Positions 3,646-50,320 of a DNA stretch of 64,000 nucleotides are shown here, in pieces. Position numbers and translations under genes: made by a program. This DNA is from an uncultured Olsenella sp. (GTDB taxonomy: Bacteria > Actinomycetota > Coriobacteriia > Coriobacteriales > Atopobiaceae): the NCBI GenBank assembly GCA_949287905.1, contig CASEHX010000001.1, forward strand, positions 62,001 through 126,000, given 5' to 3'. The notes under the pieces were generated by a model. It had not been told where the DNA came from. It saw only the letters and a list, made by a program, of their open reading frames with translations, and did no database searches. How positions within the stretch are numbered: position 1 is the first letter of the stretch; every line of letters begins with the position of its first letter.

Positions 3646-4737
3646 ATGGCACGCGTCTTCATCAGTCCCAGCAAGTATGTCCAGGGCCCCGGCGAGCTCA
3701 CCCGCCTCGGCGAGTACGCCAAGGCCTACGGCGCCCACGCGCTCGTGGTCATCTCCGAGGGCGGCCTGCGCCGCTCCGGCGACGTCATCACCGCGAGCCT
3801 TGATGCCGCCGGCGTGGCGCACACCTACGACAACTTCAACGGAGAGTGCTCCCAGGCGGAGATCGACCGCCTCGTGGAGGTCTTCCGCACGTCCGGCGCC
3901 GACTTCGTCGTGGGCGTGGGCGGCGGCAAGATCTTCGACACCGCCAAGGCCGTCGCGGCCGCCGTCGACGTGCCCGTGGTGATCGTGCCCACGATCGCCG
4001 CCACCGACGCCCCGTGCTCGGCGCTCTCCGTCATCTACACCGACGACGGCCAGTTCAAGGAGTACCAGTTCTTCAAACAGAACCCCAACCTCGTCCTCAT
4101 GGACACCGACGTCATCTCCAAGAGCCCGGTGCGCCTGACGGTCTCCGGCATGGGCGACGCGCTGGCTACCTACTTCGAGGCCCGCGCCTGCAAGCGCTCC
4201 GACGCCACCACCTGCGCCGGCGGCCACGTGACCGAGGCTGCCATGACGCTCGCCCAGCTCTGCTACGAGACCCTCATCTCCGACGGCCTCAAGGCCAAGC
4301 TCGCGCTGGAGGCCGGCGCCTGCACCGAGTCCGTGGAGAAGATCATCGAGGCCAACACGCTGCTCTCCGGCCTGGGCTTTGAGTCCGCGGGCCTCGCCGG
4401 CGCGCACGCCATCCACAACGGCATGACCGCCCTGCCCGAGACCCACGCCTACTACCACGGCGAGAAGGTCGCCTTCGGCACGCTCACGCAGCTCGTCCTG
4501 GAGAACGCCGACGAGCTCTACGAGGTGCTCGACTTCTGCGTGGAGGTTGGCCTGCCGGTGACGTTTGCGCAGCTCGGCGTCGAGGACGCAAGCTACGAGC
4601 GCGTGCTCGAGGTGGCCAAGCTCGCCTGCGCTCCGAGCGACACCCTCGGAAACATGCCTTTTGAGGTCACACCCGAGAAGGTCGCCTCCGCCATGCTCGC
4701 GGCCGACGCCTACGGTCGCGCGGCGCTGGCCGAGTAG
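3646..4737 (+). CDS. gldA: Glycerol dehydrogenase (Fe/Zn-dependent alcohol dehydrogenase family)
   Basis: NAD-dependent oxidation of glycerol to dihydroxyacetone, cytoplasmic; 363 residues, the usual length for GldA. The dinucleotide-binding GVGGGKIFDTAK is at residues 90-101. The three metal ligands of the family are all present: Asp171 (GMGDALATYFEAR), His254 (AGAHAIHNG) and His271 (HGEKVAFG). ATG 3646 follows GAGAGGAAGC. The downstream gap is occupied by the 31-bp repeat array and a strong hairpin that probably ends this transcript. No dihydroxyacetone kinase is adjacent, so the fate of dihydroxyacetone in this strain is not shown here. Confidence 0.95.
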   Translation: MARVFISPSKYVQGPGELTRLGEYAKAYGAHALVVISEGGLRRSGDVITASLDAAGVAHTYDNFNGECSQAEIDRLVEVFRTSGADFVVGVGGGKIFDTAKAVAAAVDVPVVIVPTIAATDAPCSALSVIYTDDGQFKEYQFFKQNPNLVLMDTDVISKSPVRLTVSGMGDALATYFEARACKRSDATTCAGGHVTEAAMTLAQLCYETLISDGLKAKLALEAGACTESVEKIIEANTLLSGLGFESAGLAGAHAIHNGMTALPETHAYYHGEKVAFGTLTQLVLENADELYEVLDFCVEVGLPVTFAQLGVEDASYERVLEVAKLACAPSDTLGNMPFEVTPEKVASAMLAADAYGRAALAE

Positions 4738-4763
4738 AGCGCTCTTCTCGCTACGTTATTCTC

Positions 4764-5050
4764 GTGCGCCGGATTCGGCCCGACTGCGTATACGGTGCGC
4801 CGGATTTGGCCCAACTGCGTATACGGTGCGCCGGATTCGGCCCAACTGCGTATCCGGTGCGCCGGATTCGGCCCGACTGCGTGTCCGGTGCGCCGGATTT
4901 GGCCCAACTGCGTATCCGGTGCGCCGGATTCGGCCCAACTGCGTGACTCGTGCGCCAAAATGAGCCCGACTGCGTGGGGACCCTCACGCAGTCGGGCGTT
5001 TTTTGGCGCAACCACGGTGCCGCATCACGCAGTTGGGCGTTTTTAGGCGC
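4764..5050 (+). repeat. 31-bp tandem repeat array ending in two inverted copies
   Basis: Six contiguous 31-bp units start at 4764, 4795, 4826, 4857, 4888 and 4919, each beginning GTGCGCCGGATT. A diverged seventh starts at 4950. Units carry either CCCGACTGCGT or CCCAACTGCGT. Two inverted copies follow: 4985-4997 matches the GAC variant and 5026-5038 matches the AAC variant, each followed by a T-run and GGCGC. There are no spacers, so this is not CRISPR. Short open frames across it are by-products of the repeat. Confidence 0.9.
4952..5009 (+). terminator. Strong hairpin with T-run, probable gldA terminator
   Basis: Arms GCGCCAAAA (4952-4960) plus GCCCGACTGCGTG (4964-4976) pair perfectly with CACGCAGTCGGGC (4985-4997) and TTTTGGCGC (5001-5009). 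The loop is GGGACCCT, and six T lie at 4999-5004 within the descending arm. The inner 13-bp stem followed by T6 has intrinsic-terminator form. Confidence 0.75.
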
Positions 5051-5102
5051 AGGGTAGTTTGCGTCAAGTATTGCGTCAATGCCCAGTCGCGCGCCGGCCA
5101 CG

Positions 5103-5137
5103 AAAAACGGGGCCGGTTCCCAGGCGGAACCGGCCCC
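5103..5137 (-). terminator. Intrinsic terminator for the minus-strand gene ending at 5176
   Basis: A perfect 12-bp stem GGGGCCGGTTCC / GGAACCGGCCCC (5109-5120, 5126-5137) has loop CAGGC. On the minus strand it is followed by a run of five T (AAAAA at 5103-5107 on +). Confidence 0.85.
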
Positions 5138-5175
5138 GATGCGTTCAGCGAAACAGTTCAGCGCAAACGCGCCGC

Positions 5176-5484
5176 CTAGTCGTCCTTCTCGCCAGAGAGG
5201 GAGGCGTAGAACGTGGCGTGATCGAAGACGTCCTTGATGGTCTGGCCGTTTACGAAGGGCAGCGCCAGGAACTCGTCGACGGTGGGAACGAGCTCGGAGC
5301 AGTCAACGAAGTGGTTCTTCTCGTTGCGACGGCTCGTGTCCTGCGCGCGCCAGGACTCATAGTTGCAATCCGTGAGGTAATAGACACTCGATCCGATCTT
5401 CATGTAGACGGAGTGGTTGCAGTGCAGGTACTCGACCAGACCTTCGTAGTTGATGTCGAGAGCCTCTGCTGCCTTCTTTCCCAT
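5176..5484 (-). CDS. Small conserved-looking protein of unknown function
   Basis: A 102-residue acidic protein that I do not recognise. Start ATG at 5484 (minus strand) has AAAGGGG nine bases upstream, and a clear intrinsic terminator follows the stop, so it is very likely a real single-gene unit. The sequence (MGKKAAEALDINYEGLVEYL...) has no signal peptide, no membrane segment and no known motif. It is rich in aromatic residues (YMKIGSSVYYLTDCNYESW), with an acidic C-terminus SGEKDD. It sits between the gldA repeat array and the phosphatase gene, both strands converging with gldA. Function cannot be inferred. Confidence 0.75.
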   Translation of the reverse strand: MGKKAAEALDINYEGLVEYLHCNHSVYMKIGSSVYYLTDCNYESWRAQDTSRRNEKNHFVDCSELVPTVDEFLALPFVNGQTIKDVFDHATFYASLSGEKDD

Positions 5485-5593
5485 GGCGATCCCCTTTCGT
5501 CGGAGGCCAATCGGACGTTAGCAAGACTATAACCCGCCCAGCGGACGGTTATGCGCACGTTTGCGAAATGTTAGGCGAGCGTTGCCCGAGCGG

Positions 5594-6280
5594 TCAGCGG
5601 GCGGTGCCGCGGGAGGTGCCGAGAAGAACGCGCTCCAGCTCGGCGGGGGAGTCCACGAAGGTGGTGGCGCCGGCGGCGAGAAGATCGTCCACGCTGCGGA
5701 ATCCCCAGGTGCAGCTGATGCACGGGCAGCCGACGCTCGCCGCCGTCTGCACGTCGACCTCGGAGTCGCCGACGTATGCCATGCCTTCGCACGAGGCGCC
5801 CATGCGCTTGAGCGCCGCCTCGACCATGTCCGGCGCCGGCTTCTTGCGGATGCCGGCCGCCTCGTTCTCGCCGAGGACGGCGTCGAAGGCGCCGGGGAAC
5901 TGCCGGGCAACGAGCTCCTGGACGGCAAAGTCGCCCTTGTTGGAGACCACGGCCAGGCGCACGCCGGCGGCCCGCAGGTTGGCAAGGAGCTCGGGGATGC
6001 CGGGATAGGGACCGGTGTGGTCCTCGCAGTGGGCGGCATAGTGGGCGCAGAAGTCCTCGTAGACGGCGTCCTGCTCGGCCGCGCTGGTGCCGGCGGGCAC
6101 GGCTCGCTCGATGAGCTTGCGGATGCCGTTGCCCACGAAACGCCGCACGTCGTCGAGGGAGTGCGGCGGCATGTCATGCGCGGCGAGCGCGGCGTTGGTG
6201 GAGATCCAGAGGTCCTCGATGGTGTTGAGCAGGGTTCCGTCGAGGTCAAAGACGGCGGTTGCGTACGCGGGCATGGGCAT
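5594..6280 (-). CDS. gph: HAD-family phosphatase, phosphoglycolate phosphatase-like
   Basis: Cytoplasmic haloacid-dehalogenase-superfamily phosphatase, 228 residues. Motif I FDLDGTLLNT gives nucleophile Asp12 and acid/base Asp14. Motif II is VVSNKG, the motif III lysine is in RKKPAPDM, and motif IV is YVGDSEVD. The helical cap between motifs I and II places it in subfamily I with Gph/PgmB. The most likely role is hydrolysis of 2-phosphoglycolate or a similar small phosphate ester; HAD substrate assignments from sequence are uncertain. Start is ATG 6280, with an in-frame ATG two codons later as an alternative. A 29-base dispersed repeat lies 67 bases upstream of the start. Confidence 0.87.
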   Translation of the reverse strand: MPMPAYATAVFDLDGTLLNTIEDLWISTNAALAAHDMPPHSLDDVRRFVGNGIRKLIERAVPAGTSAAEQDAVYEDFCAHYAAHCEDHTGPYPGIPELLANLRAAGVRLAVVSNKGDFAVQELVARQFPGAFDAVLGENEAAGIRKKPAPDMVEAALKRMGASCEGMAYVGDSEVDVQTAASVGCPCISCTWGFRSVDDLLAAGATTFVDSPAELERVLLGTSRGTAR

Positions 6281-6881: not shown

Positions 6882-6978
6882 CTGCCCCGCTGCGCGCCCG
6901 CCGTCTACGCGCGACGCAGCCATCCAAACGGCGTCGCCCGTACGGCACGGGGCGACAGGGACGAGAAAGGCTTTGCAC

Positions 6979-25409: not shown

Positions 25410-25576
25410 GGCGTCGGCCCGTCGTTCTTCTCGGCTGGTCTAGCCAAGAATCCCGCGCGGCGCATGGCGCCCGACCAGGAACCCCGCGCGCCGCATGGCA
25501 TCCGACCAAGAATCCCCCGCGCCGCATGGCATCCGACCAAGAATCCCCCGCGGCGCATGGTGCCCGACCAAGAATC

Positions 25577-25629
25577 CCGCGCGGCGCATGCAAAAGGTGA
25601 AACCATCGCATGCGCCGCGCGGCTTTTCT
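25577..25629 (+). terminator. Terminator-like hairpin 1 behind argD
   Basis: Perfect 15-bp stem CCGCGCGGCGCATGC / GCATGCGCCGCGCGG (25577-25591, 25608-25622) with a 16-base loop and CTTTTCT. Confidence 0.7.
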
Positions 25630-25648
25630 GTCCGTTTGGACAAGAATC

Positions 25649-25689
25649 CCGACCCACGCGTTCTTCTCGGCATGCGTGGGTCGGTTTTT
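25649..25689 (+). terminator. Terminator-like hairpin 2 behind argD
   Basis: Perfect 11-bp stem CCGACCCACGC / GCGTGGGTCGG (25649-25659, 25674-25684), loop GTTCTTCTCGGCAT, followed by TTTTT. Confidence 0.75.
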
Positions 25690-27165: not shown

Positions 27166-27497
27166 CGCGGCGCATGGCATCCGACCAAGAATCCCGCGCG
27201 GCGCATGGCGCCCGACCAGGAATCCCGCGCGCCGCATGGCATCCGACCAGGAACCCCGCGCGCCGCATGGCGCCCGACCAGGAACCCCGCGCGCCGAATG
27301 GCATCCGACCAAGAATCCCGCGCGGCGCATGGTGCCCGACCAAGAATCCCGCGCGGCGCATGGTGCCCGACCAAGAATCCCGCGCGGCGCATGCAAAAGG
27401 TGAAACCATCGCATGCGCCGCACGGCTTTTCTGTCCGTTTGGACAAGAATCCCGACCCACGCGTCCTTCTCGGCATGCGTGGGTCGGGATTCTTGGT
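27166..27497 (+). repeat. Second CCAAGAATCCCG repeat array, homologous to the one at 25441
   Basis: About eight direct units of roughly 29-30 bases are followed by the same two-hairpin module. Stem CCGCGCGGCGCATGC pairs with an arm carrying one change; then comes GTCCGTTTGGAC. The second hairpin is extended to 19 perfect bp (27444-27462 with 27477-27495) around GTCCTTCTCGGCAT. It lacks the T-run and instead ends ATTCTTGG. Confidence 0.9.
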
Positions 27498-41672: not shown

Positions 41673-42005
41673 CGACCATAAGAACCGACCGGCGCGTTCT
41701 TACTGGCCTCGACCATAAAACCCGACCGGCGCGTTCTTATCGGCGTCGACCATAAAACCCGCCCGGTTCGCTCTTATCTGCGTCTACCATAAAAGCCGCC
41801 CGGTGCGTTCTTCTCATCATGCGTGGCTCGGGTTTTTTGTCCAAACGGACACGAATCCCGTTCTGCGCATTCGGTAGTTCCATTTTTTGAATGCGTGGCG
41901 CGGGATTCTTGGTTTGCTGGCGTGAGGCAGCATGCGTGGGGCGGGATTCTTGGTTTGCTGGCGTGAGGCAGCATGCGTGGCGCGGGATTCTTGGTTCGGC
42001 GGCTC
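41673..42005 (+). repeat. Two adjoining repeat arrays: 37-bp units then 41-bp units
   Basis: Four units with exact 37-base period start at 41673, 41710, 41747 and 41784 (CGACCATAAAACCCGACCGG-like). The fourth runs into a hairpin with loop TTCTTCTCATCA and TTTTTT (41833-41838), then GTCCAAACGGAC. From about 41891 three 41-base units (starts 41891, 41932, 41973) read ATGCGTGGCGCGGGATTCTT, the reverse complement of the CCAAGAATCCCG word of other arrays. The remaining bases to 42138 hold the alaS promoter. Confidence 0.9.
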
Positions 42006-46514: not shown

Positions 46515-47022
46515 CGCGCGCCGCGGGCCCTTCCGGGCCACTCGATACGTGTCCGCGCTGCCCCTCGTCGACGTGAGCGAGCTCGTCGGCGAGGGGGTGC
46601 GCCTCGTGCTTCTCGACCGCGACAACACCTGCGTGCCCCGCGACGCGAAGGTGCCGCCTGCCGCGGTGATGGAGTGGCTCGACCGGGCGCGTGCCGCGGG
46701 CCTCACGCTGTGCCTGGTGTCCAACAACTTCCATTCCGACCAGGTGCGCGGGTCGGCCGAGCACATGGGCATGGACGTGGTCGATCACGCCATGAAGCCG
46801 CTCCCGATTGCCCTGCGTCGTGCGATGCGCATGGAGGGCTTCTCCCCGCGCGAGACCGTGATGATCGGGGACCAGGTGTTCACCGACGTGGTCGCGGGAA
46901 ACCTCGCCGGGGTGCGCACGATCCTCGTGCGCCCGCAGTCGCGCAAGGACCTCTGGTACACCCACATCTTCCGCGTCTTCGAGCGCCTCGCCCTGCGCGG
47001 GGTCACCTTCGACGGCGAGTAG
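46483..47022 (+). CDS. YqeG-family HAD-IIIA phosphatase
   Basis: 179 residues. Motif I LLDRDNTCVPRD with nucleophile Asp and second Asp, motif II LVSNNFH, a lysine in AMKPLPIALRRAM, and motif IV MIGDQVFTDVVAGNLAG. This is the small cap-less HAD-IIIA layout of YqeG, whose substrate is unknown (a phosphatidylglycerophosphate-phosphatase-type role has been shown for eukaryotic relatives). Start ATG 46483 overlaps mltG by 32 bases and keeps the conserved run RATRYVSALPLVDV. A GTG at 46549 would cut this run and is less likely. In Bacillus, yqeG lies in a cluster with yqeH and aroE; here aroK follows. Confidence 0.87.
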   Translation: MSRQSQTGRSSARRGPFRATRYVSALPLVDVSELVGEGVRLVLLDRDNTCVPRDAKVPPAAVMEWLDRARAAGLTLCLVSNNFHSDQVRGSAEHMGMDVVDHAMKPLPIALRRAMRMEGFSPRETVMIGDQVFTDVVAGNLAGVRTILVRPQSRKDLWYTHIFRVFERLALRGVTFDGE

Positions 47023-47040: not shown

Positions 47041-47185
47041 GGGCCACACACCATTCCTCCGAGAAGTGCGCTTCGCGAAACTTCTCTCCGGAATGATGTG
47101 TGGCCCTACCGATGTCGCGGGCCGCGCCCCCGTGTTCCGGAGGGAGGTTTCGCGAAGCGCACCTCCCGGAGGAACACGGGGGCGC
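47041..47185. repeat. Two long hairpins with reverse-complementary loops
   Basis: Hairpin 1: 27-base arms 47041-47067 and 47080-47106 (23 matched) around GCGCTTCGCGAA. Hairpin 2: 25-base arms 47124-47148 and 47161-47185 (22 matched) around TTCGCGAAGCGC, the exact reverse complement of the first loop. The two stems are unrelated in sequence. Both carry a small internal mismatch of about three bases (TCC/GGA type) at a similar place. Confidence 0.9.
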
Positions 47186-47245
47186 CCCACGGGCACCCGG
47201 TATCGAGTAGAATCTCTTCTCGGTATGAGACGCGAGGAGGAAGCT

Positions 47246-47791
47246 TTGTCGCACGATCCGAGATACGTTGTCCACGAGGGGTGCGACCACCTCTTCTTCG
47301 TGGGGTTTCTCGGTGCCGGCAAGTCAACGCTCGCGCGCAACCTCGGCGGGCTCTTCCACAGGCCGCACGTTGACACCGACCGCCTCGTGGAGCGCGCGCT
47401 CGGTCGCTCCGTGGCGCAGATCTTTGCCGACGAGGGCGAGGATCGGTTCCGCGAGGAGGAGACCGCCCAGCTGAGACGCCTCAGGGCACGCAAGTCGCTG
47501 CTCGTGAGCTGTGGCGGCGGCATCGTGGAGCGTGCCGAGAACTGCGAGCTCATGCACGAGATGGGGGTCGTGGTGTTTCTCGATGGCGACCTCGAGGACT
47601 CGCTCCGGCAGATTCGCCGCCCCGACCTCAGGCCCGATCTGGGCACGGCGGAGCACGCCGCCGAGGTGTATCGCCGCCGGCGCCCGCTCTACGAGGGCGT
47701 CGCGGACATCACGATCGACATACGCAACAAGTCGTTTGAGCAGGTCGCCCTCGAGTCGGGCAAGCTGCTGTGGGAGAAGGGCCTCTTATGA
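47246..47791 (+). CDS. aroK: Shikimate kinase
   Basis: Phosphorylates shikimate in the aromatic amino-acid pathway; 181-residue P-loop kinase. Walker A GFLGAGKSTLARNL, shikimate-binding Asp in HVDTDRLVE, Arg in EDRFREEE, the GGG turn in VSCGGGIVE and the lid Arg in RPDLRPDLG are all present, so it should be active. Start chosen: TTG 47246, because GGAGGAA lies six bases upstream. An ATG at 47225 is in frame but has no ribosome site. Its TGA overlaps the next gene's ATG (ATGA), so it is coupled to the AroB-like protein. Confidence 0.92.
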   Translation: MSHDPRYVVHEGCDHLFFVGFLGAGKSTLARNLGGLFHRPHVDTDRLVERALGRSVAQIFADEGEDRFREEETAQLRRLRARKSLLVSCGGGIVERAENCELMHEMGVVVFLDGDLEDSLRQIRRPDLRPDLGTAEHAAEVYRRRRPLYEGVADITIDIRNKSFEQVALESGKLLWEKGLL

Positions 47792-50185: not shown

Positions 50186-50320
50186 CGTACCAAGAATCCC
50201 GAGCTGCGCGTTCTTCTCGTCATGCGCAGCTCGGGTTTTTTGTCCAAACGGACACGTTTTGGCCCGCGCGCATGCGAAGGTTCAATCTTTTGCATGCGCC
50301 GCTCGGGATTCGTGGAACGC
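50186..50320. repeat. Two-hairpin repeat element with GTCC-AAAC-GGAC linker
   Basis: Hairpin A, 50198-50235 (see terminator). Linker GTCCAAACGGAC, 50242-50253. Hairpin B, GCGCATGC (50268-50275) with GCATGCGC (50292-50299). Then CCGCTCGGGATTCGTGG. The order and the loop words match, in reverse, the modules at 25577 and 27376. The rest of the pepP-efp gap holds only the efp promoter. Confidence 0.88.
50198..50241 (+). terminator. Terminator after the M24 peptidase gene
   Basis: Perfect 12-bp stem CCCGAGCTGCGC / GCGCAGCTCGGG with loop GTTCTTCTCGTCAT followed by TTTTTT (50236-50241). Confidence 0.9.

Follow-up and report, generated by a model that had tools for sequence, protein, structure and literature searches.

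In the boxB hairpins of the nut sites of lambdoid phages, the loop is conserved and the stem sequence varies. The attC sites of integrons keep their structure while the sequence varies, and it is the folding of the single strand that matters; they are read at the stem base and at extrahelical bases, and their tips are variable. Studies in vitro have also brought to light the d(GCGNAGC) mini-hairpins and the (GNA)2 internal loops, and both the GNA triloop closed by a C-G pair and the GNA/GNA internal loop form DNA folds of unusual stability, in which the G-A pairs are sheared.

The two hairpins described here were found in an uncultured Olsenella sp., in a window of 64,000 nucleotides that is the whole stretch of DNA analysed. 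They lie in the intergenic region between yqeG and aroK, as one forward copy (hp1) and one reverse copy (hp2) separated by a gap of 17 nt (Table 1). Their family resembles boxB in having a conserved loop on variable stems, and attC in that structure is kept while sequence varies and single-strand folding would matter, but here the tip is fixed. An earlier note on this DNA had described a pair of hairpins that share a 12-nt tip but point in opposite directions, and this was confirmed from the sequence and its inverted repeats, the hp2 loop TTCGCGAAGCGC being the exact reverse complement of the hp1 loop GCGCTTCGCGAA. The arms of hp1 (47041-47067 and 47080-47106) are 27 nt long and 85% complementary. 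The internal mismatch noticed in both stems proved to be a 3x3 mismatch placed exactly 7 bp below the loop in each hairpin, and since TCC/TCC in hp1 and GGA/GGA in hp2 are one sequence in a common orientation, hp2 is the same element reversed, beyond the loop alone. The stems had also been called unrelated, which holds for the basal 10-15 bp only, as the upper 7 bp (GAGAAGT and GGGAGGT) and the TTCC below the mismatch belong to a family consensus. A covariance model of the family (R1) matched hp1 at G000:C1:109042-109105 (E=8e-17) and hp2 at G000:C1:109123-109186:- (E=1e-17). The hp1 loop begins 46 nt past the yqeG stop codon, and a block at the aroK promoter, TATCGAGTAGAATCTCTTCTCGGTA, is conserved in related genomes whether or not they have the hairpins.

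Table 1. Features of the yqeG-aroK region (window positions) and the two transposase genes of the source genome (contig positions)
Feature	Position	Strand	Basis
yqeG (HAD-IIIA phosphatase), upstream gene; stop 47020-47022	46549..47022	+	NCBIfam TIGR01668, E=1.6e-31
hp1, forward hairpin	47041..47106	+	sequence, inverted repeat, model R1 match
hp1 basal stem	47041-47057/47090-47106	+	
hp1 3x3 internal loop TCC/TCC	47058-47060/47087-47089	+	
hp1 7-bp top stem	47061-47067/47080-47086	+	
hp1 conserved tip GCGCTTCGCGAA, mini-stem CGC/GCG, triloop TTC	47068..47079	+	sequence, genome occurrences, alignment A1
hp2, reverse hairpin	47124..47185	-	sequence, inverted repeat, model R1 match
hp2 basal stem	47124-47138/47171-47185	-	
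hp2 internal loop GGA/GGA (+ strand reading)	47139-47141/47168-47170		
hp2 top stem	47142-47148/47161-47167	-	
hp2 conserved tip; + strand TTCGCGAAGCGC contains GC-GAA-GC	47149..47160	-	
Promoter-like -10 TAGAAT of aroK, a short way 3' of hp2	47208..47213	+	sequence
aroK (shikimate kinase), downstream gene; start codon TTG at 47247 assumed from ribosome-binding-site position	47247..47791	+	NCBIfam shikimate kinase models, best E=1.9e-31
RAYT-like Y1 transposase gene L110, single-copy	3952-4882 (G000:C25)		
RAYT-like Y1 transposase gene L111, single-copy	4931-5936 (G000:C28)		

The idea that the loop is the conserved part and the stems are variable was supported both across the genome and among the family copies. 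The 1.99 Mb genome contains nine exact copies of the tip 12-mer, as against one of the reversed control, and 9 of 9 are hairpin tips; the genome check that had been proposed for further loops found many more, on other stems. From genomes of the same genus (Thermophilibacter/Olsenella, Atopobiaceae), 109 copies were gathered, 63 of which make up an ungapped alignment (A1). The family core reads TTCC-TNC-GAGAAGT-GCGCTNCGCGRA-ACTTCTC-TNC-GGAA and stands on a variable, GC-rich and almost perfectly paired basal stem, and there is a second form with a shifted internal loop (AC/TTA). Model R1 found about 25-28 distinct places in the source genome at E<1e-4, with opposite-strand repeats of one place merged and the weakest matches possibly being other hairpins. 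Among 149 genomes of the order, 10 of 10 genus members were positive, nine with about 9-30 matches (some of them opposite-strand repeats) and the tenth with a single match, and among 296 genomes of the phylum the matches were confined to the same order. Pattern matches in Bryobacterales, Planctomycetota, Acidovorax, Verrucomicrobia, Acidobacteria, Oscillospiraceae and Azospirillum were without extended stems and were put down to chance. No Rfam covariance model scored the hairpins above its gathering score, the only matches being sub-threshold ones to miRNA precursors, and a description of the family was not found in the open-licence papers searched. Elsewhere in the window, at 6889-6971 on the plus strand, the Rfam aspS RNA motif (RF02930) scored 43.6 bits, just above its gathering score.

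A sister family in the same order, which we take to be Collinsella-like, has related tips (GGGCTNCGCGA and GCGCTGCGCGGA) on perfect stems of 24-38 bp, and shows the same forward-then-reverse arrangement as the Thermophilibacter family. Among the loop variants, position 11 (A/G) tracks the genome and position 6 tracks the locus, a pattern suggestive of concerted change or of a co-evolving factor; it was not used as main evidence because the sample had been picked by a near-exact pattern.

In A1, 97.9% of the cells are paired, both sides have changed at 21 of the 26 pairs, and the covariation score is 0.569, compared with 0.161 after shuffling and at most 0.132 when slid. Double changes number 329 cells over the 26 pairs versus 82 in the shuffles, and these counts, together with the nine occurrences of the 12-mer against one for its control, all nine at tips, exclude a chance origin of the twin hairpins. 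Columns 21 and 44 hold 43 A-T and 20 G-C pairs with no mixed state, and even the mini-stem of the tip varies in a paired way in single copies, where CGC/GCG has become CAC/GTG, TGC/GCA or CTC/GAG. The polarity of the element is equally regular: with the loop in a given orientation, the mismatch is TNC/TNC in 53 of 63 copies and GNA/GNA in none, and the polarities of loop and mismatch are separated in 0 of 63. The middle base of the internal loop is free and is Watson-Crick in only 17 of 63. When the complementary strand is read instead of the one on which the tip is written, 53 of 63 copies have GNA/GNA in both mismatch loops, and the tip is GC-GNA-GC (C-GNA-G); structures of GCGAAGC are listed in PMC5430850. 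Folding energy was tried as a criterion for which strand is read and was rejected, since with either DNA or RNA parameters the strands differ by less than 1 kcal/mol, which is uninformative. Because the energy models fail to separate the strands, we can only infer that the GNA strand has such a stable fold in the family.

The placement of the copies relative to genes, as called by a simple codon-score finder, follows a rule: in about 80 of the 109 copies a same-strand gene ends 36-62 nt before the loop, and 21 reverse copies precede a gene start, most of them by 78-141 nt. The stable hairpin soon past a stop codon that marks an intrinsic terminator is thus present. No reverse copy was seen within 65 nt past the preceding stop between co-directional genes, and the reverse copies, where inspected, adjoin a -10-like box, e.g., TAGAAT or TACAAT. 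The T content per 7 nt after the stem is 2.4-2.7 for forward copies versus 0.9 for reverse copies; T is enriched after solitary forward copies, and reverse copies and many of the twins, the window pair among them, lack a T tract. Genes with forward copies encode L24, GroEL, IMP dehydrogenase, phosphoglycerate mutase, rubrerythrin and a glutamate synthase subunit, to which PNPase and PurL were added by eye, and those that follow reverse copies are aroK and, by eye, uvrA, leuS, ackA and purL. The genes for L24, GroEL, IMP dehydrogenase, phosphoglycerate mutase and rubrerythrin are housekeeping genes and usually highly expressed.

Other repeats are also found in the window. The pattern AAGAATCCCG[AC] has 14 matches versus 0.6 expected, clustered at 25446-25652, 27187-27494, 41900-41992 and 50192-50242 and including hairpins at 27444-27495 and 50191-50242; this is probably the other conserved-loop group of the earlier note. 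With up to one mismatch, GCGAGAAGAAC occurs at 31 window sites versus 1.9 expected (e.g., 13059 and 35882), and also around many forward hairpins (e.g., L019, L064 and L087), often as an outer inverted pair that encloses them. The sequence GAGAAGAAC is about eight times denser in intergenic than in intragenic DNA.

The way in which the stems change points to the DNA level. Only 7 of 1638 cells in A1 (0.4%) are G-T and 12 are A-C, whereas in control terminator-like hairpins at the same loci, with stems of at least 12 bp, G-T makes up 9.1-9.7%, a share that possible false hairpins from the simple scan would inflate. In the basal stems of close orthologue pairs, which are not phylogenetically independent, there are 187 double versus 51 single changes, and nine orthologues at the L24 gene show double changes only and no single ones, including A-T to T-A swaps that are impossible via G-T. 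Such changes suggest homogenisation of the arms at the DNA level, e.g., by template switching. Template switching during replication creates and repairs perfect stems (PMC8794818), and it homogenises arms and inverts spacers (PMC8604942). A neutral process of this kind would also erase the mismatch and scramble the direction of the loop, so the core and its polarity must be under selection. As a separate observation, contigs C6 and C25 (L003 and L009) share their beginning, an L24 gene end and its hairpin, and show slight differences further on, which may be an assembly break or a duplicated locus.

Copies are also gained and lost. The yqeG-aroK twin is intact only in the source genome and its relative G010; G014 has a decayed reverse copy, G006 and G002 have apparent single-arm remnants of hp2, and other relatives have no hairpin. 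At the uvrA locus and at that of the MHHKN gene, promoter regions alternate between hairpin-type and hairpin-free, and as some orthologous sites are without any hairpin, the element is dispensable there. In G004, the left arm of one copy is fused to the right arm of its partner. Two side observations concern these loci. Upstream of uvrA (L317-L333), hairpin-free species carry a GAACAC-N-GTTGC box resembling an SOS/LexA site, and hairpin-bearing species have a different promoter region without this box, which may amount to a change of regulation. Upstream of the MHHKNILL gene (L343-L359), the species without the family hairpin have in common a perfect 12-bp hairpin, ACAACGCCCCCG...CGGGGGCGTTGT, directly 5' of the -10, a promoter-linked hairpin different from the conserved-tip family.

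From their position and anatomy, the twin hairpins are read here, with a probability of about one half, as a convergent pair from a polar hairpin family that would mark the boundaries of transcription units as terminators or insulators. The forward copy, placed where the upstream gene ends, would act as its terminator or within it, and the reverse copy, just 5' of the next promoter, would face transcription from that side, so that the two would jointly insulate the promoter; this is what we infer to be the reason for a copy upstream of a promoter. The oriented core, made up of the tip mini-hairpin and the 3x3 TNC/TNC (GNA/GNA) loop, would be selected as a folded polar structure, while the basal stem would merely have to pair and its sequence could drift with both arms staying complementary, mostly through homogenisation by template switching. 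The tip may be read by RNA polymerase or Nus factors, or by a dedicated protein, and its recognition by some protein is possible.

Among the other explanations, a role in RNA is unlikely, though it comes ahead of the rest: the tip of a 3' UTR hairpin would bind an RNA-binding protein or nuclease and set the formation or stability of the mRNA 3' end, much like boxB. The fixed distance from the stop codon in the 3' UTR, the conserved tip and internal loop, and the housekeeping nature of the genes would suit it, but transcription would run through the reverse copies, located 5' of promoters, in the other sense, G-U is nearly absent and A-C as rare as G-T even though selection on RNA tolerates G-U, and it leaves unexplained why the strand with the GNA loops is the non-coding one. 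A bolder reading, which we consider improbable, takes up that strand: a polar signal in DNA structure, a folded single strand or cruciform nucleated by GC-GNA-GC and held by GNA/GNA, would be read by a dedicated Coriobacteriales factor that stops transcription or organises supercoiling one-way, with the stem being free and re-matched by template switching. A palindromic double-stranded site bound by a nucleoid protein or a transcription factor, with folding of the site being incidental, is very improbable. Its conserved, palindromic 40-bp core often adjoins promoters, but the half-sites change together with no mixed states, e.g., at columns 21 and 44, the variable basal stem would have no need to pair, and in duplex DNA neither the offset tip nor the mismatched TNC/TNC has dyad symmetry. 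Least probable of all is a lack of function, with palindromes made and perfected by template-switch mutation and the tip kept only as a folding nucleus. The perfect and fast-evolving stems, above all in the sister family, speak for it, as template switching does create such stems (PMC8794818), but under a neutral process the 3x3 mismatch would disappear and the loop would become inverted (spacer inversion, PMC8604942), and 53 of 63 copies retain the mismatch with its polarity, and the position relative to genes is strict.

A mobile palindrome of the REP/REPIN type, in which a transposase that works on folded single-stranded DNA spreads single hairpins and inverted pairs, ranks between the RNA reading and the DNA-structure signal and is likewise unlikely. 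There are multiple dispersed copies, with inverted pairs 17-250 bp apart, copies are gained and lost between close species, the aroK, uvrA and MHHKN loci occur with and without hairpins, and many members of the genus have RAYT-like Y1 transposases. The earlier note had named HUH/REP-type transposases, and here its suggestion was not supported: both Y1 transposase (PF01797) genes of the source genome are flanked by hairpins of their own (TGATTCAAAAGGGGACAGACCCCTTTTGAATCA and, in tandem, TGTGACAAAGGGGTCGTAGCCGACTGTCACA), the family hairpin being absent from the flanks of 2 of 2, which led to rejection of a RAYT/REP origin by this flank test, and none was present within 1.5 kb of ten further Y1 loci. 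Moreover, no Y1 transposase was detected in G004 or G019 (98-99% complete), yet these genomes give 11 and 14 model matches, respectively. The basal stems differ from locus to locus, which is unexpected if a whole element was copied, a conserved tetranucleotide at the hairpin foot is absent from A1, where foot and basal stem vary freely, and position and orientation strictly follow gene ends. No clean insertion with target duplication was found at the loci compared, and no integron-type cassette arrangement was seen around the loci read. Carriage by viruses was rejected as well, the pattern occurring at one place in 2.9 million viral contigs and without the family stem. The missing transposase link weakens a transposon-type origin, with some room left for spread in the long past. 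The note's other suggestion, a recombinase site, gives way to a boundary element, which fits better with the location at gene ends and upstream of promoters and with the strict orientation rule.

Returning to the boundary reading and to known systems, the family is like intrinsic (rho-independent) terminators in having a stem-loop soon past the stop codon, a GC-rich base and, at many solitary forward copies, a T-rich tail. It is unlike them in its conserved and oriented 40-nt core, in which the 3x3 mismatch and the tip are fixed, its near lack of G-T pairs, the twin and reverse copies that are mostly without a T tract, and the reverse copies 5' of promoters. With the REP, BIME and REPIN elements and their RAYT (TnpA-REP) partners, the family has in common short imperfect palindromes with a stem mismatch that are extragenic and occur as singles and inverted pairs; however, REPs keep foot and stem, whereas this family keeps the tip and varies the foot, was found without an associated transposase and has its orientation tied to gene ends. 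Compared with boxB, it is longer, chromosomal, located at gene ends and equipped with an internal loop. Its non-coding strand, which has a GC-GNA-GC tip and GNA/GNA within the stem, matches the d(GCGNAGC) mini-hairpins and the (GNA)2 internal loops, and a genomic family built on these motifs was not found in the open-licence papers searched. We rate the family as extragenic terminator-like palindromes not described in those papers, and there is a real chance that it is less ordinary than that. It offers a clear natural case of a conserved tip and polarity on stems that turn over with almost no G-T intermediates, and thus allows a direct test of whether compensatory stem evolution in bacteria proceeds by DNA template switching or by paired point mutations. 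Should the boundary role prove true, the family would provide a sequence-recognisable, oriented insulator or terminator for the little-studied, GC-rich Coriobacteriales of the gut.
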